A program made the translations under genes and the position numbers. Source: Aeromicrobium sp. Root236 (GTDB taxonomy: Bacteria > Actinomycetota > Actinomycetes > Propionibacteriales > Nocardioidaceae). Taken from it: a DNA stretch of 64,000 nt. Below the pieces are notes generated by a model. It was not told the origin of the DNA and ran no database searches. It saw only the letters and a list, made by a program, of their open reading frames with translations. The DNA lies in the NCBI RefSeq assembly GCF_001428805.1, contig NZ_LMIS01000001.1, positions 3,699,908-3,763,907 of the forward strand, written 5' to 3'. Below, one piece after another: positions 15,999 to 38,462 of the stretch. The stretch's first letter is position 1, and every line of letters begins with the position of its first letter.

Positions 15999-16544
15999 AT
16001 GACCACCGCAACTGCAGTCAGCACCGGCACCTGGACGATCGACCCCTCGCACACCGAGATCGGCTTCTCGGTCCGTCACCTGGTGAGCAAGGTCCGCGGC
16101 AAGTTCGAGGGCTTCGAGGGCACCATCGTCACGAAGGACGACATCACGGCCTCCTCGGTCAACGTCACGGTCGACCTCAACACGATCAACACGGGCACCG
16201 CCGACCGCGACAACCACCTGCGCTCCGCCGACTTCTTCGAGGTCGAGAGCCACCCGACGATGACGTTCGTCTCCACGAACATCATCCAGAAGAGTGACAC
16301 GGACTTCGTCGTCGTCGGCGACCTGACCATCAAGGGCGTCACCAAGCCCGTCGAGCTCGCGACCGAGTTCCTCGGTGAGGGCGGCGACCCGTGGGGCGGC
16401 ACCCGCGTCGGCATCGAGGCCACGGCCGAGATCAGCCGCAAGGAGTTCGGCATCGACTTCAACATCCCGCTCGAGGGCGGCAAGGTCATGGTCGGCGACA
16501 AGATCTCGATCCACATCAACGCCGAAGCCGTTCTCCAGGCCTAG
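15999..16544 (+). CDS. YceI-family lipid-binding protein
   Basis: 181 residues of the YceI lipocalin-like barrel: GTWTIDPSHTEIGFSVRHLV at the N-terminus, then KVRGKFEGFEGT, VESHPTMTFVST, and KEFGIDFNIPLEGGK near the end. YceI proteins bind isoprenoid or other long-chain lipids. No signal peptide is present, so this copy is cytoplasmic. A strong GAGGAG lies 5 nt before the ATG. It is divergent from a MarR gene, a common actinobacterial pairing. Its stop shares CTAG with the convergent tetR gene. Confidence 0.93.
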   Translation: MTTATAVSTGTWTIDPSHTEIGFSVRHLVSKVRGKFEGFEGTIVTKDDITASSVNVTVDLNTINTGTADRDNHLRSADFFEVESHPTMTFVSTNIIQKSDTDFVVVGDLTIKGVTKPVELATEFLGEGGDPWGGTRVGIEATAEISRKEFGIDFNIPLEGGKVMVGDKISIHINAEAVLQA

Positions 16545-17116
16545 GTGCGGCGGGTCATCCTGACTGCCAGATCGGCATGCAGGCTGGCCAGCTCATGGCC
16601 GGAGCGTGATCCGCCCGGTTCGAACCACCGCACGAGATCGACGCCGAGGGACAGCAGCGAGAACGCGGTCCCCGGGACGTCATCGACATGCAGGACGCCC
16701 TGGTCGACACCGTCGGCCAGGGCGTCCTGCATCGTCTTCTCGATGCTGCGCCGGTACGTCGCGACCTCGGCGCGGTGCTCGTCGGTCAGTGCGTGGTACT
16801 CGTACTGCACGATCCGCCCGACGCGGCTGTTGTCGGCGTGCCAGAGGCTGAAGTCGTAGACCATCGACCGGAGCCGTTCGACGGGGTCGGTGCTCGACGC
16901 CGACGCGCGGGTGATGACGTCGAACGCGCTGCGGTGACCCTCGATGCTGACTGTGAAGAGCAGGCTCTCCTTGGAGTCGTGGTGCACATAGACCGCGGCG
17001 GGGCTCATGCCGGCGCGCGAGGCGATGTCGCGGGTCGTCGTACCGGCGAAGCCCTTCTCCGCGAACGCCTCGATCGCGGCATTGATGAGCCGCTCACGTG
17101 CCGTGATGGTCGTCAT
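16541..17116 (-). CDS. TetR-family regulator of the beta-oxidation cluster
   Basis: 191 residues. The TetR helix-turn-helix is at residues 8-53 (AFAEKGFAGTTTRDIASRAG, MSPAAVYVHHDSKESLL), followed by a ligand domain. The frame remains open for several kilobases upstream, antisense to the acyl-CoA dehydrogenase and thiolase genes; the ATG at 17116 is the only start that puts the HTH at the N-terminus. It is divergent from the acyl-CoA dehydrogenase gene. A 16-bp palindrome between them is repeated exactly upstream of fabG at 36.8 kb, so it may control both. The ligand is probably an acyl-CoA, by analogy with related TetR regulators. Confidence 0.87.
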   Translation of the reverse strand: MTTITARERLINAAIEAFAEKGFAGTTTRDIASRAGMSPAAVYVHHDSKESLLFTVSIEGHRSAFDVITRASASSTDPVERLRSMVYDFSLWHADNSRVGRIVQYEYHALTDEHRAEVATYRRSIEKTMQDALADGVDQGVLHVDDVPGTAFSLLSLGVDLVRWFEPGGSRSGHELASLHADLAVRMTRRT

Positions 17117-17160
17117 GTCCACTCCTCTTTCGGTTGACAGCATGACGGAGGGCTTGCATG

Positions 17161-17176
17161 CTAAGCAAGCGCTTAG
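17161..17176. promoter_or_regulatory. TetR operator, copy 1 (CTAAGC-N4-GCTTAG)
   Basis: CTAAGCAAGCGCTTAG has perfect 6-bp arms and lies 39 nt upstream of the acyl-CoA dehydrogenase start and 44 nt upstream of the divergent tetR start. The identical 16-mer, in the same orientation relative to the gene it precedes, occurs before fabG (36807-36822). Confidence 0.7.
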
Positions 17177-17215: not shown

Positions 17216-18361
17216 TTGCGGCGGACGATCTACGACCAGGACCACGAGGCGTTCCGGGACTCCTGCGCGGCCTTCCTGGCCAAGCATGTGACCCCCAACC
17301 TCGAGACGTATCTCGAGGAGAAGGCGCTCCCGCGCGACTTCTGGCTCGCTGCGGGCGCCGAAGGGTTCCTGGGCCTGGAGATCCCCGAGGAGCTCGGCGG
17401 CGCGGAGGCCGGCGACTTCCGGTTCAACGCCATCTGGGCCGAGGAGCTGAGCAAGCTCAACGCGGCGCTCGCGTCGTGCATGGCGATCCATGCCGACATC
17501 GCGGTGCCCTACATCGTCGACCTGGCCACCGAAGAGCAGAAGCAGCGCTGGCTGCCCGGCTGCGCGACCGGTGAGATCGTCACGGCGATCGGCATGACTG
17601 AGCCCGGCGGCGGCTCCGACCTTGCTGCGCTCAAGACCACCGCGGTGCGTGACGGCGACGAGTGGGTCATCAACGGCTCCAAGACGTTCATCACCAACGG
17701 CTACTCCGCCGACCTCGTGCTCACCGCGGTCCGTACGTCCCCCGACAAGGGGGCCAAGGGCATCACGCTGTTCGGGCTCGAGGCGACCGACGAGGGCTTC
17801 AGCCGGGGCCGCAAGCTCGACAAGGTCGGGCAGAGCGAGGCCGACACGTCCGAGCTGTTCTTCGAGAACGTGCGCGTCGGCGACGACCGGATCATCGGCG
17901 AGGTCGACCGCGGCTTCATCTACATGATGGAGCGGCTCCCGCAGGAGCGACTGACCTGCGCCGTGTCCAACGTGGCCCACGCCAAGCAGATCCTCGCCGA
18001 GACGATCCAGTACGCCCACGACCGGGTCGCGTTCAAGCAGCCGATCGGCAGCCTGCAGCACAACAAATTCCTGCTCGCGGAGCTGGTGACCAAGATCGAG
18101 GTCGCCGAGGCGTACGTCGACCAGGCCGTGCTCGCCCACAGCAACGGTGAGGCGACCGCGATCGACGCGGCCAAGGCCAAGTGGTGGTCGTCGGAGATCC
18201 AGAACGACGTCCTCGACCACTGCGTCCAGCTGCACGGCGGATACGGCTTCATGAACGAGTACCGTGTCGCGCGTGCGTGGCGCGATGCCCGCGTCAGCAA
18301 GATCTGGGCCGGATCCAACGAGATCATGAAAGAGCTCATCGGCCGCGACCTCGGATTCTGA
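17216..18361 (+). CDS. Acyl-CoA dehydrogenase
   Basis: 381 residues from the TTG at 17216, which gives the usual N-terminus RRTIYDQDHEAFRDSC. Family signatures: AIGMTEPGGGSDL (FAD/substrate site, about residues 122-134), WVINGSKTFITNG, QLHGGYGFMNEY, and the C-terminal IWAGSNEIMKELIGRDLGF. It introduces the trans-2 double bond into an acyl-CoA and passes electrons to ETF. It is the first gene of a cluster with thiolase and an SDR, under a divergent TetR gene. Chain-length preference cannot be read from sequence. Confidence 0.93.
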   Translation: MRRTIYDQDHEAFRDSCAAFLAKHVTPNLETYLEEKALPRDFWLAAGAEGFLGLEIPEELGGAEAGDFRFNAIWAEELSKLNAALASCMAIHADIAVPYIVDLATEEQKQRWLPGCATGEIVTAIGMTEPGGGSDLAALKTTAVRDGDEWVINGSKTFITNGYSADLVLTAVRTSPDKGAKGITLFGLEATDEGFSRGRKLDKVGQSEADTSELFFENVRVGDDRIIGEVDRGFIYMMERLPQERLTCAVSNVAHAKQILAETIQYAHDRVAFKQPIGSLQHNKFLLAELVTKIEVAEAYVDQAVLAHSNGEATAIDAAKAKWWSSEIQNDVLDHCVQLHGGYGFMNEYRVARAWRDARVSKIWAGSNEIMKELIGRDLGF

Positions 18362-24750: not shown

Positions 24751-24787
24751 TGAGGAAACCCTCGCATTAAACTTGAGGAAAGCCTCA
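24751..24787. promoter_or_regulatory. Double FAS operator (TGAGG-N4-CCTCA type)
   Basis: Two palindromes, TGAGGAAACCCTCG (24751-24764, one base off) and TGAGGAAAGCCTCA (24774-24787, perfect 5-bp arms), are separated by 9 nt. A TTAAAC-like -10 box lies between them. The second site with its flanks (TTGAGGAAAGCCTCATGTTTT) recurs almost unchanged before the carboxylase gene at 36924. It probably binds a lipid-responsive repressor. Confidence 0.65.
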
Positions 24788-24852
24788 TGTTTTGAGAGGA
24801 TGGTGGGACCGCCCGTCGATCCAGCGACGGCAGTGACCCCGAGGGATTCCAC

Positions 24853-27800
24853 GTGACGACCATCGACACCCCGCTTGCCACGATCCAGCCCACCGAGCGC
24901 CGCGGCGCCTTGGTCGATCGCCTCTCGACCGGCACGCCGTACGCCATCGCGTTCGGCGGCCAGGGTGCTCCGTGGCTCGAGCCGCTCGCGGGACTCATCC
25001 GTGACTTCGCGCTCGAGGCCGAGCTCGAGACCCTCGTGTCGCAGGCCGAGGAGCGCCTCGCTCCGGTCGCCGCGGAGCTCGCCCGGGTCGGCGTGACGTT
25101 CACGCCCCTCGAGTGGGCCGATGTCATCGCCGTCGGCGAGTCCGCCGAGGACGACGACGCACCTGAACTGCCGAGCTCCGCGGTGCTGGATACACCCGGA
25201 GCCTCGGTACCCGGCATCCTCCTGACGCAGCTCGCCGGCCTCCGCGCGCTGCGCCGCCAGGGCGTCGACACGCAGCTGACCGCCCCGGTCGCCGTCATCG
25301 GCCACTCGCAGGGTGACCTCGCCACGCAGTCGCTGGCGGGCGTCGACGACGTCGAGCTGCTGGCCCTCGCCCGGCTCATGGGTGCAGCGGCGCAGCTCGT
25401 GGGCCGCCGCCGCGGCCTGCTCGGCTCGACGATGCTGAGCGTGTCGAACGTCGTGCCGGAGCGCATTGACGCGATCCTCGCCGAGCTTCCGGCATCGCTG
25501 CGCGTCGTCTCGCGCCTCCGCAACGGTCGCCGCGGCGTCGTGCTGTCCGGCCCCGCCGACAGTCTCCGCGTCGTCGAGGCTCGCCTCGAGGAGGTCGCCG
25601 CGGCCGAGAAGGCCGATCGTGAGCGCAAGGTCACCGGCGGCTCGCCGTTCGCCCCCGTCCTGGAGCCGCTGCCGGCCCAGCTCGCCTTCCACCACCCCGA
25701 CCTCGCCGAGGCCGCTGACCTGGTCGCCACCTGGGCCGAGGCCTGTGGCTTCGACGGTGCCCGCGCCCGTACGCTCACGATGCGCTCGATCGTCGACCCC
25801 GTCGACTGGGTCGCGTCGCTCGAGTCTGCACTCGACGCCGGCGCGACGTGGGTCCTCGACCTCGGCCCGTCCGACATCGCCGCCCGGCTCTCCGCGCGTG
25901 ACCTGCGCAGCCGCGGAGCCGGCATCATCGCCACGACGACGCGTCGCGGCCACCGTGAGCTGACCGCCGCCGGTGCTGCACCGCGCCTGGCGACCCCCTG
26001 GTCCGCATACGCCCCCAGCGTCGTGACGCTGCCCGACGGCAGCCTGCACGTCGAGACCCGCTTCACCCGCCTGACCGGCAAGTCGCCGATCCTGCTGGCC
26101 GGCATGACGCCGACGACGGTCGACGCCAAGATCGTCGCCGCAGCGGCCAACGCCGGCTTCTGGTCCGAGCTCGCCGGCGGCGGCCAGGTCACCGAGGAGA
26201 TCTTCGCCGATCGCGTGGCCGAGCTCGACGAGCTGCTGCTGCCCGGCCGGACGTACCAGTTCAACTCGCTGTTCCTCGACCCCTACCTCTGGAAGCTGCA
26301 GCTCGGGCAGAAGCGGCTCGTGCAGCGTGCCCGCGCTGCCGGTGCCGCGATCGACGCGGTCATCGTGACCGCCGGCATCCCCGAGCTCGACGAGGCCGTC
26401 GAGCTCGTCGAGGAGCTCCGCGCCGCGGAGATCACGCACGTCGTGTTCAAGCCGGGCACGGTCAAGCAGATCCGCCAGGTGCTCGCGATCGCCAAGGCCG
26501 TCGCGCCGACGCCGATCATCGTCCAGATCGAGGGCGGCCGCGCTGGCGGTCACCACTCGTGGGAGGACCTCGACGACCTGCTGATCGCCACGTACGGCGA
26601 GCTGCGCAGCCTCGACAACGTCGTCGTCGCCGTCGGTGGCGGCATCGGCACGCCCGAGGTCGCCTCGGCCTACCTCACGGGTGAGTGGGCACGCCGCCAC
26701 GGCTTCCCGGTCATGCCGCTCGACGGCATCCTCGTCGGCACCGCCGCGATGGCGACGCTGGAGGCGACGACCTCGCCCGAGGTCAAGCAGCTGCTCGTCG
26801 ACACGCGCGGCACGGGCACCTGGGTCGGCGCGGGCAGCGCCAAGGGCGGCATGGCCTCGGGCCGCAGCCAGCTCGGCGCCGACATCCACGAGATCGACAA
26901 CACGGCGTCGCGCACGGGTCGCCTGCTCGACGAGGTCGCCGGCGACGCCAAGGCGGTCGCCGCACGTCGCGACGAGATCATCGAGGCGCTCAACCGTACG
27001 GCCAAGCCCTACTTCGGCGACGTCGACACCATGACGTACGCGCAGTGGCTCCGCCGCTACGTCGAGCTGTCCGGCACGCCGTCGTGGCTCGACGTCACGA
27101 TCCGCGACCGCTTCCACGCGATGCTGCAGCGCGCCGAGGCCCGCCTCAACGCTGCCGATCGCGGCACCATCCCCACGCTCTTCGCCGACGCTTCCCTGGT
27201 CGACGACGGCGCCGCGGCAATCACCACCCTGCTCGAGGCGTACCCGCGCGCGGAGGACGTCGTCCTCCACCCGGCCGACGTGCTGTTCTTCGTCGACCAG
27301 TGCCGGACGCCGGGCAAGCCGGCCAACTTCGTGCCCGTGCTCGACCAGGACGTACGCCGCTGGTGGCGCTCGGACTCGCTGTGGCAGGCGCACGACCCGC
27401 GCTACGCCGCCGACGAGGTCTGCGTCATCCCCGGCACCGTCTCCGTCGCCGGCATCGACCGGCTCGACGAGCCCGTCGCCGACCTGCTGCGCCGTTTCGA
27501 GGACGCCACGATCGACGGCCTGCTCGCCTCGGGCCGCGCCGCCCAGCGGGTCACCGGTCGCCGTCGTGTCGAGGGCGCCGGTGACGTGCTCTCGCTCGTG
27601 CTCGCCGCTCCCGACCTCGTCTGGGCCGGTCGCACCGTTCGCAACCCCGTCCACCGCCTCGGTGCCGAGTGGGTCATCGTCGACCCGCAGCGTGCCGAGC
27701 ACCCCGAGACGGGCGCCGCGCTCGTCGCGGTCGACGGTCGCACCGCTGAGCTGCAGGTGCCGCTCGCACGTCCGCTCTCGCTGCGCATCGCGGTCGACGA

Positions 27801-30800
27801 CTCCGTGCTCGCCGGCGCCGCCCCGGTCGTGTCGACCGAGGTCGCCGCGTCCGCGATGTCCTCTCTCGTCGCCGGTGCTGCCGGTGGCGACGTCCCGTCG
27901 GTCAACAACGGCCGCGCGACCGTCACGGTCGAGTGGGACCCGGACCTGATCGCCGACCACGCCGGTGTCACCGGTGCAGACGTGCCGGTCCACCCCGTGC
28001 CCGACGTGCTCGTGGGTCTCGCCTGGCCGTCGGTCTTCGCGGTGCTCGGCGAGGCCACCACCTCGACCGGCATCCCGGTCATCGAGGGCATGCTCGACCT
28101 GGTCCACCTCGACCACGCGATCGCCCTCCACGACGCGCTGCCCGTCGCTCCCGCAGAGCTCACGATCACCTCGGTCGTCGAGTCGATCGAGGACACCGGC
28201 TTCGGCCGGGTCGTCGCGGTCGACGTCACGGTGTCCTCCGCCTCAGGGGAGGTCGCGACGCTGCGTGAGCGCTTCGCGATCCGCGGACGTACCGGAGCCG
28301 GCGAGCTCTCCGACCCGGCACGCGCCGGCGGAGCGCTCGGCGACGACATCAAGGACACGCCGCGCAAGTCGCGCGGTGCGGCGACGCTGACGGCGCCCAC
28401 CGACCTGCGTGGTTTCGCCGCCGTCACGGGCGACCACAACCCGATCCACACCAGCATCGCCGCCGCCCGCCTCGCGGGGCTCGGTGCGCCGATCGTGCAC
28501 GGCATGTGGGTCTCCGCCGCGGCCCAGCAGGTGCTCTCCGGCCGCCGCATCACGGGCTGGACCACGCGCTTCCTCGCACCGGTCCGCCCGGGCGTGAAGG
28601 TCGACGTCAAGGCCGACCGCATCGGTCTCGACAACGGCGCCGAGCTGGTCGACATCACGTGCCGCGCCGAGGGCGAGGTCGTCATGTCGGCGACCGCCCG
28701 CCTCGAGGCGCCCCGCACGGCGTACGCCTTCCCGGGCCAGGGCATCCAGCACCAGGGCATGGGCATGGCGGGTTACCAGCGCTCCAAGGCTGCCCGTGAG
28801 ATCTGGGACCGCGCCGACGCGCACACGCGCGCCGCGCTCGGCTTCTCGATCCTCACGGTCGTGCGCGACAACCCGACGGTCCTGGTGACCAACGGCGTGA
28901 CGCACAAGCACCCCGACGGCGTCCTGTTCCTCACGCAGTTCACGCAGGTCGCGATGGCGGTGCTCGGTGCCGCACAGATGGCGGAGCTCCGCGAGTCCGG
29001 CGCGTTCGTCGAGGGCTCGATCCTCGCGGGTCACTCCGTCGGCGAGTACAACGCGCTCGCGGCCGTCTCGGGCGTCATCCCGCTCGAGGCCGTCGTCGAG
29101 GTCGTGTTCCAGCGCGGCTCGGTCATGCACACGCTCGTGCCCCGCGACGCCGAGGGCCGCAGCAACTACCGCCTCGCGGCGATCCGCCCGGCGCAGATCG
29201 GCCTCAACGACGACAACGTCACGGCGTACGTCGACCGCATCGCGGACGAGTCCGGCGAGTTCCTGCAGATCGTCAACTACAACCTGCGCGACTCGCAGTA
29301 CGCGATCGCCGGCACGGTGCGCGGCCTGGAGATCCTCGAGGAGGACATCACGCGTCGCCGCGAGGAGTTCGGCGGCAAGGCTGCCTACATCCTCGTGCCC
29401 GGCATCGACGTGCCGTTCCACTCCACGGTGCTGCGCGACGGCGTCCCGGACTTCCGCGACCGCCTCACCGAGCTGCTGCCGGCGACGATCGACCCCGCGA
29501 TCCTCGAGGGTCGCTACGTCCCCAACCTCGTGCCCAAGCCGTTCTCGCTCGACCGTGCATTCCTGCAGGAGATCGCCGACCTCGTGCCGTCGGAGCCGCT
29601 CAACGCGGTCCTGGCCGATTTCGCGACCTGGTCGGCGAAGCCCGGCGAGCTGTGCCGTGTCGTCCTGATCGAGCTGCTGGCCTGGCAGTTCGCCAGCCCG
29701 GTCCGCTGGATCGAGACGCAGGACCTGCTGTTCGGCGACCTCGGTGTCGAGCGCTTCATCGAGGTCGGTGTCGGCCAGGCCCCCACGGTGGCCAACCTCG
29801 CGTCCTCGACGCTCAAGCTCCCGGGCCGCTTCGGCGGACCCGTCGAGGTGCTCAACTTCGAGCGCGACGGCGCCGCGGTCTTCGCGACCGACGAGGAGCA
29901 GGTCGTCGAGCAGGAGGAAGCTCCGGTGGAGTCCTCCCCGCCCGAGGCCTCGGCTCCTGCTGCGGCCCCCGCTGCCGCTCCGGCGACCTCGAGCGGGCCG
30001 CGTCCGGCCGACCTGACGTTCGACGCCGCCGACGCCACCACGGTGCTCATCGCCTGGTGGACCAAGATGCGCCTCGACCAGATCGGCGCCGCCGACACGA
30101 TCGAGTCGCTGTGTGACGGCGCTTCGTCGCGACGCAACCAGCTGCTCGTCGACCTCGGTGGTGAGCTCAGCCTCGGCGCGATCGACGGCGCCGCTGACGC
30201 GGACCTGCCGACGCTGTCTGCGCAGGTCAAGGGCCTGGCTCGCGGCTACAAGCCGTTCGGCCCGGTGCTCGCCGAGGCCCTCGGCGACCACCTCAAGAAG
30301 GTCCTCGGCCCGACCGGCAAGCGCCAGTCGGCCGTCGCCGAGCGCGTCGCCGACGTCTGGCAGCTCGGGCCGGGCTGGGCGAGTCACGCACTCGTCGAGC
30401 TCGCGCTGTCGAGCCGCGAGGGGTCGAGCGTCCGTGGTGGCGAGTACGGCTCGCTGAGCGGCCTCGCCTCCGGTGCCGACGTCGACGCCGCGATCGACGC
30501 GAGCGTCCAGGCCGTGGCCGCACGCCACGGCATCAGCGTCGACCTGCCGTCCACGGGCGGGGGAGAGGGCGCCACGATCGACGCGGCCGCCCTCGGTGAG
30601 TTCACCGCACAGATCACCGGTCCCGACGGTGTCCTGGCCTCGTCGGCGCGCCTGGTGCTCGACCAGCTCGGACTCACGGACGTACCGGCCGTCGTCGAGA
30701 CGGACGAGGCAGAGGCCGAGATCCTGGCCCGCGTCGAGACCGAGCTCGGCAGCGACTGGGCCAAGCTCACGGCTCCGGCGTTCGACCCGCTCAAGGCCGT

Positions 30801-33800
30801 CGTGCTCGACGACCGCTGGGCCAGCGCCCGCGAGGACCTCGCCCGCATCGCCGCAGGCGAGACCGTCGAGGCCAGCTTCGTCGGCGCCGGCGAGGTCGTC
30901 GCTGCGCAGGCCCGCTGGCACGCGGACCACGCCGACCCGCGATTGGCCGAGCGTTTCACGCAGATCGCCGCTGACGCCCTCAGCCCGACGGACCAGACCT
31001 GGTCCGGAGAGCTCGCGGTCGTCACGGGTGCCAGCCAGGGCTCGATCGCCGCAGGCGTCACCGGCAAGCTGCTCGCGGGCGGTGCGACGGTCGTCGCGAC
31101 CACCTCGAGCCTCGACGCCAAGCGGCTCGCGTTCTACAAGGAGCTCTACCGCACGCACGCCGTCGCCGGAGCTGTCCTGTGGGTCGTCCCGGCCAACATG
31201 GCGTCGTACGCCGACGTCGACGCGCTGACGAGCTGGCTCACCAGCGAGCAGACGCAGACCCGTGCGGGTGTCACGACGGTTGCCAAGCCGGCCATGACGC
31301 CGACGCTGCTGTTCCCGTTCGCGGCCGGTCGCGTCGCCGGTGACCTCACCGACGCCGGCAGCCGCACCGAGGTCGACATGCGCATCCTGCTGTGGTCCGT
31401 CGAGCGCCTGATCGGGCAGCTCTCGGCCGGCATCCAGGACCGCGACCTGACCTCGACGCTGCACGTCGTGCTCCCGGGCTCGCCCAACCGCGGCATGTTC
31501 GGCGGCGACGGCGGATACGGCGAGGCCAAGGCCGCGCTCGACGCCGTCGTGGCCCGCTGGTCCGCAGAACGTACGTGGGCCGATCGCGTCACGCTGAGCC
31601 ACGCCATCATCGGCTGGGTCCGCGGCACGGGCCTCATGGGCGGCAACGACCCGCTGGTCGAGGCCGTCGAGGCTGCCGGTGTCCGCACCTGGTCGCCGGA
31701 GGACATGGCGACCGCCCTGCTCGAGACCGCAACCGCCGAGGCTCGCGCCGCTGCGCGCATCGAGCCGCTGACGGTCGACCTCACGGGTGGCCTCGCGGGC
31801 GTCAAGCTCGACATGAAGGCGCTCGCCGAGGGCGTCGCGCGTCCGTCCGCCGCCGACGAGGACGAGACCGGCATGATCGCCGCGCTCGCCGCTTCGCCGG
31901 CCCAGCTCGACCGCGTCGAGCAGCTCGACTGGGCACCCGTCGACGCCAGGCCCGAGGACCTCGTGGTCATCGTCGGTGCCGGCGAGCTCGGCCCCTACGG
32001 CTCCTCTCGTACACGCTTCGAGATGGAGGTCTCCGACGAGCTGTCGGCCGCCGGCGTCCTCGAGCTGGCCTGGACCACGGGTCTGGTCAGCTGGGACGAG
32101 CAGGGTGGCGGTTGGTTCGACACCGAGACGCAGGAGAAGGTCGACGAGGCCGATCTCGTCGAGCGCTACGAGGACAAGGTCCGCGAGGCGGTCGGCATCC
32201 GGCGCTACGTCGACGAGGGCAACATGGTCGACAACTCGGCCCCGCTGCTGACGTCGGTGTTCCTCGACAAGGACCTGTCGTTCACCGTGTCCAACGAGGC
32301 GGAGGCGCGCGCGCTGCGTGACGCCGACCCCGAGCGTACGGTCATCGCGGCGACAGCCGACGGCGACTGGACCGTGACCCGCAAGGCCGGCACAGAGATC
32401 CGCGTGCCGCGTCGCATGGCGCTCACGCGTACGGTCGGCGGCCAGATCCCGACCGGCTTCGACCCCACGGTGTGGGGTGTGCCGGCCGAGATGGTCGACT
32501 CGATCGACCGGGTCGCGCTGTGGAACCTCATCTGCACGGTCGACGCGTTCCTCTCGAGCGGGTTCAACCCGTCCGAGCTGATGCGTTGGGTCCACCCGGC
32601 GCTCGTCGCCAACACGCAGGGCACCGGCATGGGCGGCATGCAGTCGATGCAGTCGCTCTACCTCGACACGCTGCTGGGCGAGAGCAAGCCCAACGACATC
32701 CTGCAGGAGGCGCTGCCCAACGTCATCGCCGCGCACGTCGTGCAGTCGTACGTCGGCTCGTACGGTGCGATGGTCCACCCCGTCGCCGCCTGTGCCACCA
32801 CGGCCGTGTCGGTCGAGGAGGGTGTCGACAAGATCAAGCTGGGCAAGGCCGAGTTCGTGGTCTCCGGCGGGTTCGACGACCTGAGCGTCGAGGGCATCGT
32901 GGGCTTCGCCGACATGTCGGCGACCGCGGACTCCGCGGCGATGCGCGCCAAGGGGCTCGAGGACCGCTACTTCAGCCGGGCCAACGACCGTCGCTACGGC
33001 GGCTTCGTGGAGTCGCAGGGTGGCGGCACGATCCTGCTCGCCCGCGGTGACCTCGCGCTGCGCATGGGTCTCCCGGTCCTCGGCGTCGTCGCGTACGCCG
33101 GCTCGTTCGCCGACGGCGTGCACACGTCGATCCCGGCTCCGGGCATGGGCGCTCTCGCGGCCGGCCTCGGTGGTCGCGAGTCCGCGCTGGCGAAGTCGCT
33201 GCGCACGCTCGGCCTCACCGCCGACGACATCGGCGTGCTGTCCAAGCACGACACGTCGACCGGGGTCAACGAGCGCAACGAGTCCGAGCTGCACGAGCGG
33301 CTCGCAGCGGCGATCGGCCGCAGCGAGGGCAACCCGCTCTACGTGATCTCGCAGAAGAGCATCACGGGGCACACCAAGGGTGGCGCCGCGGCGTTCCAGG
33401 TCATCGGGCTCTGCCAGGTGCTGTCCGGTGGGGTCATCCCGCCGAACCGCAGCCTCGACTGCGTCATGGACGACCTCGCCGAGCACGAGCACCTGGTCTG
33501 GCTGCGCAAGCCGCTGGCCACGGGTCAGCTCAAGGCGGGCATCCTCACGAGCCTTGGCTTCGGTCACGTCGCGGGCCTCATCGCGCTCGCACACCCCCAG
33601 GCATTCCTTGCGACCTTGAGCGACGAGGAGCGCGCCTCCTACGCCGCCCGTGCGGAAGCACGGCTCATCGAGGGTCGGATGCGTCTCGTCAGGGCCATGT
33701 ACGGCGGAGCGTCGCTGTACGAGCGTCCTGCCGATCGGCGCCTCGGCAGTGAGGGAGTGCGGACCCGGGAGGCTGGACTTCTCCTGGACCCGCAGGCACG

Positions 33801-33843
33801 GCTGGGTGAGGACGACGTCTACTTCGGAGCGTCGTGCCAGTGA
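24853..33843 (+). CDS. fas: Type I fatty acid synthase
   Basis: A 2996-residue multienzyme that makes long-chain acyl-CoAs from acetyl- and malonyl-CoA. Domains in order: acetyltransferase (GHSQGD, Ser152); enoyl reductase (ILLAGMTPTTVDAK, about 412); MaoC-like dehydratase (GDHNPIHTS, about 1193); malonyl/palmitoyl transferase (YAFPGQGIQHQGMGM at about 1291, GHSVGEY with Ser1395); an Ala/Pro linker; ACP (DGASSRRNQLL, Ser1758 or Ser1759 as pantetheine site); ketoreductase (VVTGASQGS, about 2056); and ketosynthase (AACATTAVS with Cys2647, KHDTSTG with His2799, GHTKGG with His2840). All active sites are intact and the length matches mycobacterial Fas. The GTG at 24853 follows a GAGG site. It overlaps acpS by 4 nt. 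Confidence 0.97.
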   Translation: MTTIDTPLATIQPTERRGALVDRLSTGTPYAIAFGGQGAPWLEPLAGLIRDFALEAELETLVSQAEERLAPVAAELARVGVTFTPLEWADVIAVGESAEDDDAPELPSSAVLDTPGASVPGILLTQLAGLRALRRQGVDTQLTAPVAVIGHSQGDLATQSLAGVDDVELLALARLMGAAAQLVGRRRGLLGSTMLSVSNVVPERIDAILAELPASLRVVSRLRNGRRGVVLSGPADSLRVVEARLEEVAAAEKADRERKVTGGSPFAPVLEPLPAQLAFHHPDLAEAADLVATWAEACGFDGARARTLTMRSIVDPVDWVASLESALDAGATWVLDLGPSDIAARLSARDLRSRGAGIIATTTRRGHRELTAAGAAPRLATPWSAYAPSVVTLPDGSLHVETRFTRLTGKSPILLAGMTPTTVDAKIVAAAANAGFWSELAGGGQVTEEIFADRVAELDELLLPGRTYQFNSLFLDPYLWKLQLGQKRLVQRARAAGAAIDAVIVTAGIPELDEAVELVEELRAAEITHVVFKPGTVKQIRQVLAIAKAVAPTPIIVQIEGGRAGGHHSWEDLDDLLIATYGELRSLDNVVVAVGGGIGTPEVASAYLTGEWARRHGFPVMPLDGILVGTAAMATLEATTSPEVKQLLVDTRGTGTWVGAGSAKGGMASGRSQLGADIHEIDNTASRTGRLLDEVAGDAKAVAARRDEIIEALNRTAKPYFGDVDTMTYAQWLRRYVELSGTPSWLDVTIRDRFHAMLQRAEARLNAADRGTIPTLFADASLVDDGAAAITTLLEAYPRAEDVVLHPADVLFFVDQCRTPGKPANFVPVLDQDVRRWWRSDSLWQAHDPRYAADEVCVIPGTVSVAGIDRLDEPVADLLRRFEDATIDGLLASGRAAQRVTGRRRVEGAGDVLSLVLAAPDLVWAGRTVRNPVHRLGAEWVIVDPQRAEHPETGAALVAVDGRTAELQVPLARPLSLRIAVDDSVLAGAAPVVSTEVAASAMSSLVAGAAGGDVPSVNNGRATVTVEWDPDLIADHAGVTGADVPVHPVPDVLVGLAWPSVFAVLGEATTSTGIPVIEGMLDLVHLDHAIALHDALPVAPAELTITSVVESIEDTGFGRVVAVDVTVSSASGEVATLRERFAIRGRTGAGELSDPARAGGALGDDIKDTPRKSRGAATLTAPTDLRGFAAVTGDHNPIHTSIAAARLAGLGAPIVHGMWVSAAAQQVLSGRRITGWTTRFLAPVRPGVKVDVKADRIGLDNGAELVDITCRAEGEVVMSATARLEAPRTAYAFPGQGIQHQGMGMAGYQRSKAAREIWDRADAHTRAALGFSILTVVRDNPTVLVTNGVTHKHPDGVLFLTQFTQVAMAVLGAAQMAELRESGAFVEGSILAGHSVGEYNALAAVSGVIPLEAVVEVVFQRGSVMHTLVPRDAEGRSNYRLAAIRPAQIGLNDDNVTAYVDRIADESGEFLQIVNYNLRDSQYAIAGTVRGLEILEEDITRRREEFGGKAAYILVPGIDVPFHSTVLRDGVPDFRDRLTELLPATIDPAILEGRYVPNLVPKPFSLDRAFLQEIADLVPSEPLNAVLADFATWSAKPGELCRVVLIELLAWQFASPVRWIETQDLLFGDLGVERFIEVGVGQAPTVANLASSTLKLPGRFGGPVEVLNFERDGAAVFATDEEQVVEQEEAPVESSPPEASAPAAAPAAAPATSSGPRPADLTFDAADATTVLIAWWTKMRLDQIGAADTIESLCDGASSRRNQLLVDLGGELSLGAIDGAADADLPTLSAQVKGLARGYKPFGPVLAEALGDHLKKVLGPTGKRQSAVAERVADVWQLGPGWASHALVELALSSREGSSVRGGEYGSLSGLASGADVDAAIDASVQAVAARHGISVDLPSTGGGEGATIDAAALGEFTAQITGPDGVLASSARLVLDQLGLTDVPAVVETDEAEAEILARVETELGSDWAKLTAPAFDPLKAVVLDDRWASAREDLARIAAGETVEASFVGAGEVVAAQARWHADHADPRLAERFTQIAADALSPTDQTWSGELAVVTGASQGSIAAGVTGKLLAGGATVVATTSSLDAKRLAFYKELYRTHAVAGAVLWVVPANMASYADVDALTSWLTSEQTQTRAGVTTVAKPAMTPTLLFPFAAGRVAGDLTDAGSRTEVDMRILLWSVERLIGQLSAGIQDRDLTSTLHVVLPGSPNRGMFGGDGGYGEAKAALDAVVARWSAERTWADRVTLSHAIIGWVRGTGLMGGNDPLVEAVEAAGVRTWSPEDMATALLETATAEARAAARIEPLTVDLTGGLAGVKLDMKALAEGVARPSAADEDETGMIAALAASPAQLDRVEQLDWAPVDARPEDLVVIVGAGELGPYGSSRTRFEMEVSDELSAAGVLELAWTTGLVSWDEQGGGWFDTETQEKVDEADLVERYEDKVREAVGIRRYVDEGNMVDNSAPLLTSVFLDKDLSFTVSNEAEARALRDADPERTVIAATADGDWTVTRKAGTEIRVPRRMALTRTVGGQIPTGFDPTVWGVPAEMVDSIDRVALWNLICTVDAFLSSGFNPSELMRWVHPALVANTQGTGMGGMQSMQSLYLDTLLGESKPNDILQEALPNVIAAHVVQSYVGSYGAMVHPVAACATTAVSVEEGVDKIKLGKAEFVVSGGFDDLSVEGIVGFADMSATADSAAMRAKGLEDRYFSRANDRRYGGFVESQGGGTILLARGDLALRMGLPVLGVVAYAGSFADGVHTSIPAPGMGALAAGLGGRESALAKSLRTLGLTADDIGVLSKHDTSTGVNERNESELHERLAAAIGRSEGNPLYVISQKSITGHTKGGAAAFQVIGLCQVLSGGVIPPNRSLDCVMDDLAEHEHLVWLRKPLATGQLKAGILTSLGFGHVAGLIALAHPQAFLATLSDEERASYAARAEARLIEGRMRLVRAMYGGASLYERPADRRLGSEGVRTREAGLLLDPQARLGEDDVYFGASCQ

Positions 33844-34232
33844 CGGTTGTCGGTGTCGGTGTTGATCTGGTCCACGTCCCTTCTTTCGCGGACCAGCTGG
33901 AACAACCCGGAACCACGTTCGCCACGGCTTTCCTGCCCGGTGAGCGAAGTGACGTGCGGAGTCGTCCCTCCGACTCCGCGCGTCACTTCGCCGTGCGCTG
34001 GGCCGCCAAGGAGGCGGTCATCAAGGCCTGGTCGGCGTCGCTCCACGGCGAGCCGCCGGTCATGGACGAGCACGTGCACCATCTCATCGAGGTCGTCGCC
34101 GATGCGTGGGGTCGCCCGCGCATACGCCTGCACGGCGAGGTGGCGAAGTGGCTCGCCGATCACACCCTCGAGGTCTCGCTGAGCCACGACGGTGACTACG
34201 CCATCGCGTACGTCGTCCTGTCCCGCGCCTGA
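33840..34232 (+). CDS. acpS: Holo-ACP synthase (4'-phosphopantetheinyl transferase)
   Basis: 130 residues. The AcpS signatures are GVGVDLVHV (metal-binding Asp) at the N-terminus and FAVRWAAKEAVIKAW (Glu/Lys of WxxKEA) in the middle, with VSLSHDGDYAIAYV at the end. It transfers phosphopantetheine from CoA to the ACP domain of the adjacent FAS-I. The GTG at 33840 overlaps the fas stop (GTGA); a GTG two codons earlier is an alternative. The fas-acpS pair is the standard arrangement in FAS-I actinobacteria. Confidence 0.94.
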   Translation: MTVVGVGVDLVHVPSFADQLEQPGTTFATAFLPGERSDVRSRPSDSARHFAVRWAAKEAVIKAWSASLHGEPPVMDEHVHHLIEVVADAWGRPRIRLHGEVAKWLADHTLEVSLSHDGDYAIAYVVLSRA

Positions 34233-34242
34233 GGCTCCTCGG

Positions 34243-34359
34243 TGGCGGTTTACCAAGAGGTCAGGGCAAGCTGGCAGCTCCGCAGGGCAAACCGCCACAC
34301 CTCAGGGTGTGCGCGCCGTGAGAAGTGGCTGTTCGCCCTGACCTCTTGGTAAACCGCCA
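34243..34359. repeat. 117-bp palindromic element with perfect 25-bp arms
   Basis: The left arm (34243-34267) and right arm (34335-34359) are perfect 25-bp reverse complements; each starts or ends with the GGCGGTTTACCAAGAGG sequence. The 67-bp interior holds GGCAAACCGCCA (34286-34297), which matches 11 of 12 bases of the arm tip and could form an alternative, shorter hairpin. A further small hairpin AGCCC-TTC-GGGCT follows at 34360-34372. It lies between acpS and the convergent tetR gene and may double as a terminator. There is no ORF inside. Confidence 0.8.
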
Positions 34360-34370
34360 AGCCCTTCGGG

Positions 34371-34988
34371 CTAGGCGTGCTCGGCGCTCAGCAGGTACGC
34401 CGTGACGAGCCGCTTGAGCTCGATGATCGACTCGGCGTGCTCCTGGCCGTCGCGGATCGAGAAGTTGAGCATCGAGTAGACGACGTGCACCAGCACCTCG
34501 GCCATGATCTGGCGGCGTTCGCGCGGCGTGCCGGGGGTCAGCGGGGCCAGTGCGCGCGCCACCTCGGCCGCAAGCTCCCGCTCGGTCACCGCAGCGGTCG
34601 CGCGGGTCGCCGGCGTCGACTGCACGGCGAGCCACACGGCCCGGCGTGACGGGTCGTTGACCCAGAGCTCGGCCATGTGGTCGACGAGCCGGTTGAGGAA
34701 CTTCAGCCAGTCGAGCGTCGGGATCGCCTCGGCGAAGCTCGCAAGCTCCTGGCGTACGGCCACGGCGTCGACCCGGTCGAGCTCGCACACGATGACGTAC
34801 TTGTTCTGGAAGAACTGGTAGAGCGTGCCGATCGGCAGACCCGCTCGGTGAGCGACCTCCTCGCACGTGAACGACTCGAAGCCGACGTCGAGCAGCAGCT
34901 CGCGCGACACCTGCAACAGGTGGTCGAACTTCTTGTGGCTACGCTCCTGCGTCGGGCGGCGCCGGGGTTCGAGGATCTCGGCCGTCAC
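34371..34988 (-). CDS. TetR-family regulator next to the FAS genes
   Basis: 205 residues. The HTH is at about residues 22-66 (LLLDVGFESFTCEEVAHRAG, LPIGTLYQFFQNKYVIVCEL), followed by an all-helical ligand domain. GTG start. It is the last gene of a minus-strand unit with fabG and the ACAD10-like gene (10 nt behind the latter). By position it is a candidate for the repressor that reads the palindromes before fas and the carboxylase. In mycobacteria a TetR protein, FasR, controls fas-acpS, but orthology to FasR cannot be judged here. Confidence 0.85.
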   Translation of the reverse strand: MTAEILEPRRRPTQERSHKKFDHLLQVSRELLLDVGFESFTCEEVAHRAGLPIGTLYQFFQNKYVIVCELDRVDAVAVRQELASFAEAIPTLDWLKFLNRLVDHMAELWVNDPSRRAVWLAVQSTPATRATAAVTERELAAEVARALAPLTPGTPRERRQIMAEVLVHVVYSMLNFSIRDGQEHAESIIELKRLVTAYLLSAEHA

Positions 34989-34998
34989 GGGCGCAACC

Positions 34999-36027
34999 CT
35001 ATCCCGTAGCGGCGCGTCCTGCGGCGATCAAGGGAACGATCATGTCGCCGATGCCGTCGAAGCCCGCCCCGACGGTCTGCCCGTGCGAGTGGCGGTAGTG
35101 GATGCCCTCGAGGATCACGGCGAGCTTGAAGAACGCCAGGGCGAGGTGGAAGCCGATGTCGCTGACGTCCCGACCCGACTCTGCGGCGTACCGGGCGAGC
35201 ACCTCGTCGCGGCTGAGGTAGCCGGGCGCGACCGGGGCATCCGTGACCATCGCGGCGTCGCCCGACGGGGGAGCGACCTCGGCGAGCTGCTGGTAGGCCA
35301 GCAGCACCGCGACGTCGGTCAGCGGATCGCCGAGCGTGCTCATCTCCCAGTCGAGCACCGCGGTGACCTGGTCCTGGTCGTCGACCAGCAGGTTGTCGAG
35401 CCGGAAGTCGCCGTGCACGATCGTGCCGTCCCCGTTGGCGGGGATGTGGGACTCCAGGTGCGCGACGAGCTCGTCCATGCCGGGCAGCTCACGGCTGGTC
35501 GATGCCTCGAGCTGCTTCTTCCAACGAGCGACCTGGCGGCCGAGGTAGCCGTCCGGGCGGCCGAAGTCGCCCAAGCCGACGGCGGCGTAGTCGACGGCGT
35601 GCAGGGCGACCAGGGTGTCGACCATGCGCTCGCTGATGACGCGCGTACGTTCGGGGCCCAGCGGCTCGAGCTGCGCCGCCCGGCCGTACGGGGTGCCGGC
35701 GACCTTCTCCATGACGTAGAACGGCGCACCGATGACGTCGGCGTCCTCGCAGTGGGCGATCATCTGCGGCACCGGCACGTTGGTCGGTGCCAGGGCCGCC
35801 ATGACGCGATACTCGCGGCCCATGTCGTGCGCCGTCGCGAGCACGTGACCCAAGGGTGGACGGCGTACGACGTAGTCGCGGGAGCCGGCGCTCAGCGTGT
35901 ACGTCAGGTTGGACTTGCCGCCCGTGATGAGGCTCGCCGTCAGCGGCCCGGTGACCAGCTCGGGACGCTCGCGCTCCAGCCAGTTCTGCAGCGCAGCGAG
36001 GTCCAGGCCCTTGGGATCGCTCGACAT
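34999..36027 (-). CDS. Phosphotransferase-family protein (ACAD10/11 kinase-like)
   Basis: 342 residues with the aminoglycoside/choline kinase fold. The catalytic loop is HGDFRLDNLL (His205, Asp207, Asn212), the metal-binding DWE lies at about 226, and the N-lobe has GGKSNLTYTL. It matches the branch that forms the N-terminal kinase domain of ACAD10/ACAD11, proposed to phosphorylate 4-hydroxyacyl-CoAs before oxidation. It starts 1 nt after the fabG stop, so it is co-expressed with a lipid reductase, which supports a role in acyl-CoA metabolism and not antibiotic resistance. Confidence 0.88.
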   Translation of the reverse strand: MSSDPKGLDLAALQNWLERERPELVTGPLTASLITGGKSNLTYTLSAGSRDYVVRRPPLGHVLATAHDMGREYRVMAALAPTNVPVPQMIAHCEDADVIGAPFYVMEKVAGTPYGRAAQLEPLGPERTRVISERMVDTLVALHAVDYAAVGLGDFGRPDGYLGRQVARWKKQLEASTSRELPGMDELVAHLESHIPANGDGTIVHGDFRLDNLLVDDQDQVTAVLDWEMSTLGDPLTDVAVLLAYQQLAEVAPPSGDAAMVTDAPVAPGYLSRDEVLARYAAESGRDVSDIGFHLALAFFKLAVILEGIHYRHSHGQTVGAGFDGIGDMIVPLIAAGRAATG

Positions 36028-36028
36028 G

Positions 36029-36784
36029 TCAGGCCTTGGGCCCGCCGGCGACGTAGATGACCTGGCCGGACACGAACCCCGCGCCCTCGCTCACGAGGAA
36101 CGACACGGTGTGCGCGATGTCCTCGGGCTGACCGACGCGGGCGACCGGGATCTGCTCGGCGTTCCACTTGATGAAGTCGTCGAAGGGGATCTTCATGCGC
36201 TCGGCCGTCGAGGCGGTCATGTCGGTCTGGATGAAGCCGGGGGCGATGGCGTTGGCGGTGATGCCGAACTTGCCGAGCTCGATCGCGAGGGTCTTGGTGA
36301 AGCCCTGCATGCCGGCCTTGGCGGCCGAGTAGTTGGCCTGGCCGCGGTTGCCGAGCGCCGAGGTGCTCGAGAGGTTGACGATGCGGCCGAAGCCGGCCTC
36401 CGTCATGTGCTTCTGGGCCGCCTTGGTCATCAGGAACGCGCCGCGCAGGTGCACGTTCATGACGGCGTCCCAGTCGTCGACGGTCATCTTGAACAGCATG
36501 TTGTCGCGGATGATGCCGGCGTTATTGACCAGCACGGTCGGCGCACCGAGCTCGGCAGTGATGCGCTCGAACGCGGCGGCGACCTGCTCCTCGTTGCTCA
36601 CGTCGGCGCCGACGGCGAGGGCCTTGCCCCCGGCGGCGGTCACGGCGTCGACGGTGGCGGCGCAGGACGCCTCGTCGAGGTCGACGACGGCGACCTGGAA
36701 GCCGTCGGCGGCGAGCCGCTGCGAGACGGCCGCGCCGATGCCTCGTGCGGCTCCGGTGACGATCGCGGTACGGGTTTCGGTCAC
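36029..36784 (-). CDS. fabG: 3-oxoacyl-ACP reductase FabG-type SDR
   Basis: 251 residues from GTG 36784, preceded by GAAGGAGC. NADP site TGAARGIG (about 10), NNAGI (about 88), catalytic Ser in NLSSTSALG and Tyr152/Lys156 in NYSAAKAG; the C-terminus SGQVIYVAGGPKA is typical. It reduces 3-oxoacyl thioesters or acts in the reverse direction on hydroxyacyl-CoAs. It is first in the operon with the ACAD10-like gene and a TetR. A 16-bp palindrome 22 nt upstream is identical to the one before the acyl-CoA dehydrogenase at 17.2 kb. Confidence 0.9.
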   Translation of the reverse strand: MTETRTAIVTGAARGIGAAVSQRLAADGFQVAVVDLDEASCAATVDAVTAAGGKALAVGADVSNEEQVAAAFERITAELGAPTVLVNNAGIIRDNMLFKMTVDDWDAVMNVHLRGAFLMTKAAQKHMTEAGFGRIVNLSSTSALGNRGQANYSAAKAGMQGFTKTLAIELGKFGITANAIAPGFIQTDMTASTAERMKIPFDDFIKWNAEQIPVARVGQPEDIAHTVSFLVSEGAGFVSGQVIYVAGGPKA

Positions 36785-36806
36785 GAGATGCTCCTTCGAC
36801 GGGCGC

Positions 36807-36822
36807 CTAAGCGCTTGCTTAG
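36807..36822. promoter_or_regulatory. TetR operator, copy 2 (CTAAGC-N4-GCTTAG)
   Basis: CTAAGCGCTTGCTTAG on the plus strand, which is CTAAGCAAGCGCTTAG in the direction of fabG, the exact 16-mer found at 17161-17176 before the acyl-CoA dehydrogenase. It lies 22 nt upstream of the fabG GTG. Confidence 0.7.
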
Positions 36823-36895
36823 TGAATTCCTTCCGCACGTTATCGCACGAGGCCCGCGTGTGCGAGATCACCGTCGACATTGGTGGCGTTGAAGA

Positions 36896-36937
36896 TGAAG
36901 GAACCCTCATGTTTGTGTATAGTTGAGGAAAACCTCA
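36896..36937. promoter_or_regulatory. Double FAS-type operator before the carboxylase gene
   Basis: TGAAGGAACCCTCA (36896-36909, 4 of 5 arm pairs) and TGAGGAAAACCTCA (36924-36937, perfect 5-bp arms) flank a TATAGT -10 box (36918-36923). The second site with its flanks TTGAGGAAAACCTCATGTTTT differs from the FAS site by one base. The arrangement suggests that a bound repressor covers the promoter. Confidence 0.65.
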
Positions 36938-36953
36938 TGTTTTAGGAGTCCTC

Positions 36954-38461
<1,508 letters not shown>

Positions 38462-38462
<1 letters not shown>

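Follow-up and report, generated by a model that had tools for sequence, protein, structure and literature searches.

The window, by which we mean the whole 64,000-nucleotide stretch of the Aeromicrobium sp. Root236 genome that was analysed, carries a fas gene followed by acpS and then, in convergent orientation, genes for a TetR-family regulator, an APH-type phosphotransferase and a FabG-like reductase. An accD-like gene is divergent from the reductase gene (Table 1). The gap separating acpS from tetR contains an inverted repeat (34243-34276 and 34326-34359) whose 34-nt arms are 88% complementary; it may be a terminator acting in both directions or a small repeat element. A structure model of the TetR protein had low confidence (mean pLDDT 54.7), so the predicted fold gives no support on its ligand.

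Table 1. Genes, candidate operators and promoter elements of the fas-accD region (positions within the window)
Feature	Position	Strand	Details
fas, type I fatty acid synthase	24853-33843	+	2996 aa; Pfam Fas1-AflB-like_hel, FAS_AT_central, MaoC, AT and KS domains
acpS, phosphopantetheinyl transferase	33840-34232	+	overlaps the fas end; Pfam ACPS
TetR-family regulator (FasR-like), proposed operator reader	34371-34988	-	Pfam TetR_N 35 bits, TetR_C_22 100.7 bits
APH-type phosphotransferase gene	34999-36027	-	Pfam APH; 10 bp from tetR; probable operon with tetR
SDR (FabG-like) reductase gene, probably leading the tetR operon	36029-36784	-	Pfam adh_short_C2; top NCBIfam matches are FabG models
accD-like acyl-CoA carboxylase carboxyltransferase	36954-38462	+	502 aa; Pfam Carboxyl_trans
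fas operator site 1 (candidate)	24751-24764	.	TGAGGAAACCCTCG, outer half AAAACATGAGG; site at the same place in 36/36 usable genus promoters
fas operator site 2 (candidate)	24774-24787	.	TGAGGAAAGCCTCA; 23 bp from site 1, centre to centre
fas -10 element (probable)	24796-24801	+	GAGGAT; 8 bp after site 2; from genus comparison, inferred
accD operator site 1 (candidate)	36896-36909	.	TGAAGGAACCCTCA; site at the same place in 41/41 usable genus promoters
accD -10 element	36918-36923	+	TATAGT; 8 bp after site 1, abuts site 2; variants TAGACT, TTTACT in the genus
accD operator site 2 (candidate)	36924-36937	.	TGAGGAAAACCTCA; over the expected transcription start
Second, different palindrome	36807-36822	.	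CTAAGCGCTTGCTTAG; promoter of the SDR-aph-tetR genes

Paired palindromes at the fas and accD promoters

The initial annotation had described two copies of TGAGG-N4-CCTCA before each of fas and accD. The second copy is exact in both promoters, while the first copies, TGAGGAAACCCTCG and TGAAGGAACCCTCA, each deviate by one mismatch. The 21-nucleotide block reported to link the promoters, TTGAGGAAA[G/A]CCTCATGTTTT, is indeed found at 24773-24793 and 36923-36943 with a single difference. Across the 3.9 Mb genome its motif form, TTGAGGN4CCTCATGTTTT, matches these two promoters and nothing else, and the control pattern matches nowhere.

The bare core TGAGGN4CCTCA is barely enriched, with 8 occurrences genome-wide as opposed to 4 of a reversed-pattern control. 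Six of the 8 are distinct from fas and accD; four fall well inside predicted open reading frames and two at frame edges (809193 and 3526889). Allowing one mismatch, a scan of the window returned 6 matches against 2.26 expected, and at the same stringency the genus regions contained 29 sites outside both promoters in 727,514 bp. Pairs of sites are far rarer: at least two occurred in 2 of 12,755 random 263-bp windows, compared with all 36 fas and all 41 accD promoters available from the genus. Random scatter of the motif is thus rejected on the uniqueness of the 21-mer, the conservation of the site pairs in the genus and the random-window counts, and the palindrome is common to the fas and accD promoters far above chance.

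Both edge copies lie beside open reading frames. At 809193 (locus L001, near 1501) the fas-type palindrome has its third copy, likewise conserved, just 5' of a small frame, about 57 aa long in L001, which recurs at L265, L348, L349, L350, L352, L356, L357 and L359; the protein begins MDES or similar and, where read through, ends near E[YF]GRHAWDE. At 3526889 (L281 at 2501), TGAGGTGGACCTCATG marks the start of a 329-aa frame and is listed as well for two close relatives, G109 and G115, which may be chance.

Conservation was assessed in the window or fetched regions of the 45 genomes, out of 49 in the genus, that carry an orthologue of the TetR (76-100% identity); the four genomes lacking one are 71-88% complete. 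This base gave 36 usable fas upstream regions (eight absent, and one, from G155, too short) and 41 usable accD upstream regions (four absent). All 36 fas promoters and all 41 accD promoters carried exactly two sites with at most one mismatch, although these counts are not independent because the genomes are related. The spacing of the fas sites is 23 bp throughout (36/36), and that of the accD sites is 28 bp in 24 promoters, 29 bp in 16 and 30 bp in one. The information profiles read AA.ATGAGG-N4-CCTCAtGTT, giving a palindrome of about 22 bp, AAcATGAGG-N4-CCTCAtGTT, and the numbers of distinct sequences per site were 30 and 31 for fas and 38 and 23 for accD. In the wider family of the window, the 21-mer pattern was found in 21 of 149 genomes, all of them within the 37 genomes of the genus.

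A -10-like box had been proposed between the two sites of both promoters. This holds for accD, where TATAGT occupies that position. In fas, the box that had been read (TAAACT, 24768-24773) does lie between the sites, but comparison across the genus favours a -10 element past site 2. There, the pattern NANNAT followed by G occurs 8-10 bp beyond the site in 33 of 36 promoters (raw count), and 10 of these 33 boxes stand 6-7 nt 5' of the start codon implied by protein alignment, as in leaderless genes. The intervening box ends in T in 25 of the 36 promoters and in A in 11 (hand count), and was rejected by comparison with the 33 of 36 past site 2.

With the fas -10 element placed at 24796-24801, the operator centre falls 15.5 bp 5' of the -10 element both in fas site 2 and in accD site 1. 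The remaining operator of each pair lies upstream in fas and over the expected start in accD. An operator in the spacer at the same distance in both promoters favours repression, as far as layout can tell. The two promoters differ in site spacing, a point against the single-repressor reading.

As possible further targets, the genome's five biotin carboxylase loci were scanned whole with a relaxed pattern; gene starts may fall outside some of them. L343 holds the sole upstream match of the five, AACATGAGGGAACCCTCG at 2909, which resembles fas site 1 and stands 5' of a gene that, from its translation, is presumably pyruvate carboxylase-like. L345 has a weak match inside a long open frame, and L344, L346 and L347 have no match to the relaxed pattern anywhere in the locus. 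With an upstream match at one of five loci, membership of the acc partner subunit is not established.

The TetR and the palindrome beyond Aeromicrobium

Among the best 80 of 567 confirmed relatives from a scan of named genomes, proteins at 68-72% identity to the TetR were found in Rhodococcus, Nocardia and their relatives. In most Rhodococcus, Nocardia and Aeromicrobium loci tetR stands next to acpS and fas, and the convergent gene order is shared. Of 66 loci outside the genus (L079-L144), 52 include the fas start and 28 of these have at least 240 bp upstream; the palindrome is present in the fas promoter of 25 of the 28, and two of the three exceptions (L089, L092) end where the site is expected. 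The Rhodococcus/Nocardia-type loci with enough sequence showed no second site at a distance of 23-30 bp, L096 having a distant one. Doubled operators therefore look specific to Aeromicrobium among the genomes examined.

Outside genus g31, presence of the regulator tracks that of the synthase. A class-wide sample of 296 genomes contains 17 with the TetR (E up to 1e-30) and 34 with FAS-I (PF08354). Those 17 coincide exactly with the FAS-I genomes that do not belong to g31, the two surveys apparently covering the same genomes. From family and FAS-I content, g31 is probably Mycobacterium and another genus discussed below, g139, probably Corynebacterium. In g31, which lacks the window-type TetR, none of 17 promoters has a fas site with up to two mismatches within 500 bp before the fas alignment; matches to the window TetR are at best weak there (E about 1e-16 to 1e-18, in 4 of 20 genomes).

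In the family of genome G190 (251 genomes), 200 genomes match the TetR profile at 1e-15; five of these matches are weak (four from g31 and one from g140). The strict motif ACRTGAGGN4CCTCAYG is present in 123 of the 195 genomes with a strong TetR match and in none of the 56 others (hand count), with the reversed control in 7 of 251. It is missing from 72 of the 195, several of which have close variants. None of 21 g139 genomes carries the strict motif; their fas site has a degenerate left half, as in ATGATGGAATCCTCAT. Relatives of the window TetR in ten fetched g139 genomes share 49-56% identity with it, adjoining acpS in six and lying within 17 kb of it in eight. A relaxed motif occurs in 33 of 81 g139 genomes. 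We fetched 30 of these loci: five are fas promoters (L439, L440, L441, L454, L455), the match falls within an open frame in L433 (accD-like) and in L434 (biotin carboxylase-like), and the other 23 show no tie to a fas or acc gene.

The one other FAS-I genome from the window's own family in the class sample, G004 (genus g5), also has the TetR, yet at fas it has only a half-like site. This genome also has a one-mismatch site, TGAGGCTAGTCTCA, in the tetR promoter, 59 bp before the tetR alignment (L364), which suggests that the TetR may regulate its own gene there. In genus g99, palindromes of the CGTGAGGTGATCCTCACG type stand beside methylmalonyl-CoA mutase genes (L271, L272), with similar ones listed in other g99 genomes; they may belong to the window-type TetR or to another regulator.

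Candidate regulator and its proposed mode of action

The proposal that a single regulator governs both the supply of malonyl-CoA (accD) and its use (fas), with the TetR at 34371 as the candidate, draws support from synteny, co-occurrence and motif conservation. We consider it probable (roughly 0.8) that the palindromes are operators of this protein and that it represses fas-acpS and accD together. In such a scheme a TetR dimer at fas site 2 or accD site 1, 15.5 bp before the -10 element, would block RNA polymerase, and the second operator would add a further dimer, which in fas would sit upstream and in accD would cover the start. Joint repression of fas-acpS and accD would keep malonyl-CoA supply in step with its use, and long-chain acyl-CoA end products would probably strengthen this repression, by analogy with FasR of C. 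glutamicum.

The C. glutamicum protein (cg2737) is described in PMC6460773 and PMC7316851 as repressing accBC, accD1, fasA/fas-IA and fasB/fas-IB through the fasO site; its effector is acyl-CoA (PMC7851686 and PMC7316851), and its locus tag lies near that of fas-IA, cg2743 (PMC6460773). PMC8790568, PMC7652896, PMC10355004 and PMC5541348 were also consulted. The system described here has in common with it a TetR-family regulator encoded close to fas and acpS, fas and acetyl-CoA carboxylase genes as presumed joint targets, and, at the level of the motif, a shared candidate operator at the fas and acc promoters. It differs in having two operators per promoter at (nearly) fixed spacing, each built on the full TGAGGN4CCTCA palindrome, and in that accD adjoins the regulator operon. 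The window TetR is most likely of the C. glutamicum FasR type, as judged by synteny and presumed targets rather than by direct comparison of the proteins or of fasO, and the paired operators at fixed spacing look like a lineage-specific variant of a FasR-type system. Studies of C. glutamicum FasR-fasO by Nickel 2010 and Irzik 2014 are cited in PMC6460773, PMC7316851 and PMC7851686. Among the papers listed by literature searches, which covered few subscription papers, none dealt with a window-type regulator in Aeromicrobium, Rhodococcus or Nocardia. FapR/FadR-type lipid regulators are alike in logic, with one repressor of fatty acid synthesis genes and a CoA- or acyl-linked signal; their proteins and operators are not known to be related to the window TetR system.

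Might the neighbouring TetR bind these sites and mainly activate, or exert mixed regulation through the upstream fas site? Mycobacterial FasR, also a TetR-family protein, is an activator of fas-acpS that senses acyl-CoA, and one fas site does lie upstream of the promoter core. We regard this as unlikely, since the layout is that of a repressor, with one site in the spacer just 5' of the -10 element in both promoters and the second accD site over the expected start, and since the nearest functional relative, C. glutamicum FasR, is a repressor (PMC6460773 and PMC7316851).

The initial annotation had looked to mycobacterial FasR as a precedent, and this link did not survive comparison. Against the Rv3208 family model NF053731 the window TetR scores 21.3 bits over 50 residues where the cut-off is 330, and so is not a member. 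The M. tuberculosis protein shares TetR-family control of fas-acpS, with acyl-CoA sensing being a property of the mycobacterial protein; it belongs to another TetR subfamily, uses another DNA site and activates, whereas the layout here suggests repression. The genome does hold a separate Rv3208-like gene (G000:C1:1374372-1374953, about 239 bits), and its mycobacterial relative controls fas-acpS. That this gene product reads the sites while the neighbouring TetR has some other role is nevertheless very unlikely: its score too is below the family cut-off, the 25-mer co-crystallized with M. tuberculosis FasR, as given in PMC7382501, is without the TGAGGN4CCTCA palindrome, and the g31 FAS-I genomes, assumed to use Rv3208 from their inferred Mycobacterium label, lack the fas site in 17 of 17 cases. 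Least probable of all is a regulator unlinked to the locus, for although TetR-like genes abound in the genome (one TetR model gives 48 matches), the motif distribution tracks that of the window TetR, whose gene lies between the targets.

A second palindrome and a possible wider system

The promoter of the SDR-aph-tetR genes contains a different palindrome, CTAAGCGCTTGCTTAG. An identical copy is located at 17161-17176, between another TetR gene (16541-17119) and a pair of acyl-CoA dehydrogenase (17216-18361) and thiolase genes. Within the genus, all 41 intergenic regions before the reductase gene contain it with no more than two mismatches (30 exact, eight with one mismatch and three with two), whereas of 600 260-mers drawn at random from these loci 581 had 5-8 mismatches in their best match. 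Because the palindrome is common to the tetR operon and acyl-CoA dehydrogenase promoters, expression of the proposed repressor may answer to a regulator of fatty acid breakdown.

From this we tentatively sketch a broader arrangement, which we think somewhat less than evenly probable. Non-mycobacterial FAS-I would constitute a module of fas-acpS with its own TetR and operators, the TetR being lost or absent only in g31, which would use another TetR. Aeromicrobium would have added accD and doubled the operators, and its repressor operon would stand under CTAAGCGCTTGCTTAG, shared with the divergent TetR/acyl-CoA dehydrogenase pair, wiring breakdown to synthesis.

Taken on sequence comparison, the locus most likely represents a conserved operator system in which a FasR-type repressor acts through doubled operators at fas and accD. 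If so, the operator of a FasR-type repressor would be defined by comparison across many genera, and type I fatty acid synthase would usually come with a dedicated repressor, g31 (probably Mycobacterium) being without one. The Aeromicrobium promoters would form a small model in which to study how a pair of repressor dimers, set a fixed distance apart, matches the supply of malonyl-CoA to its use, and their operators would be a practical handle for raising malonyl-CoA, comparable to mutation of fasO in C. glutamicum (PMC6460773 and PMC7316851).
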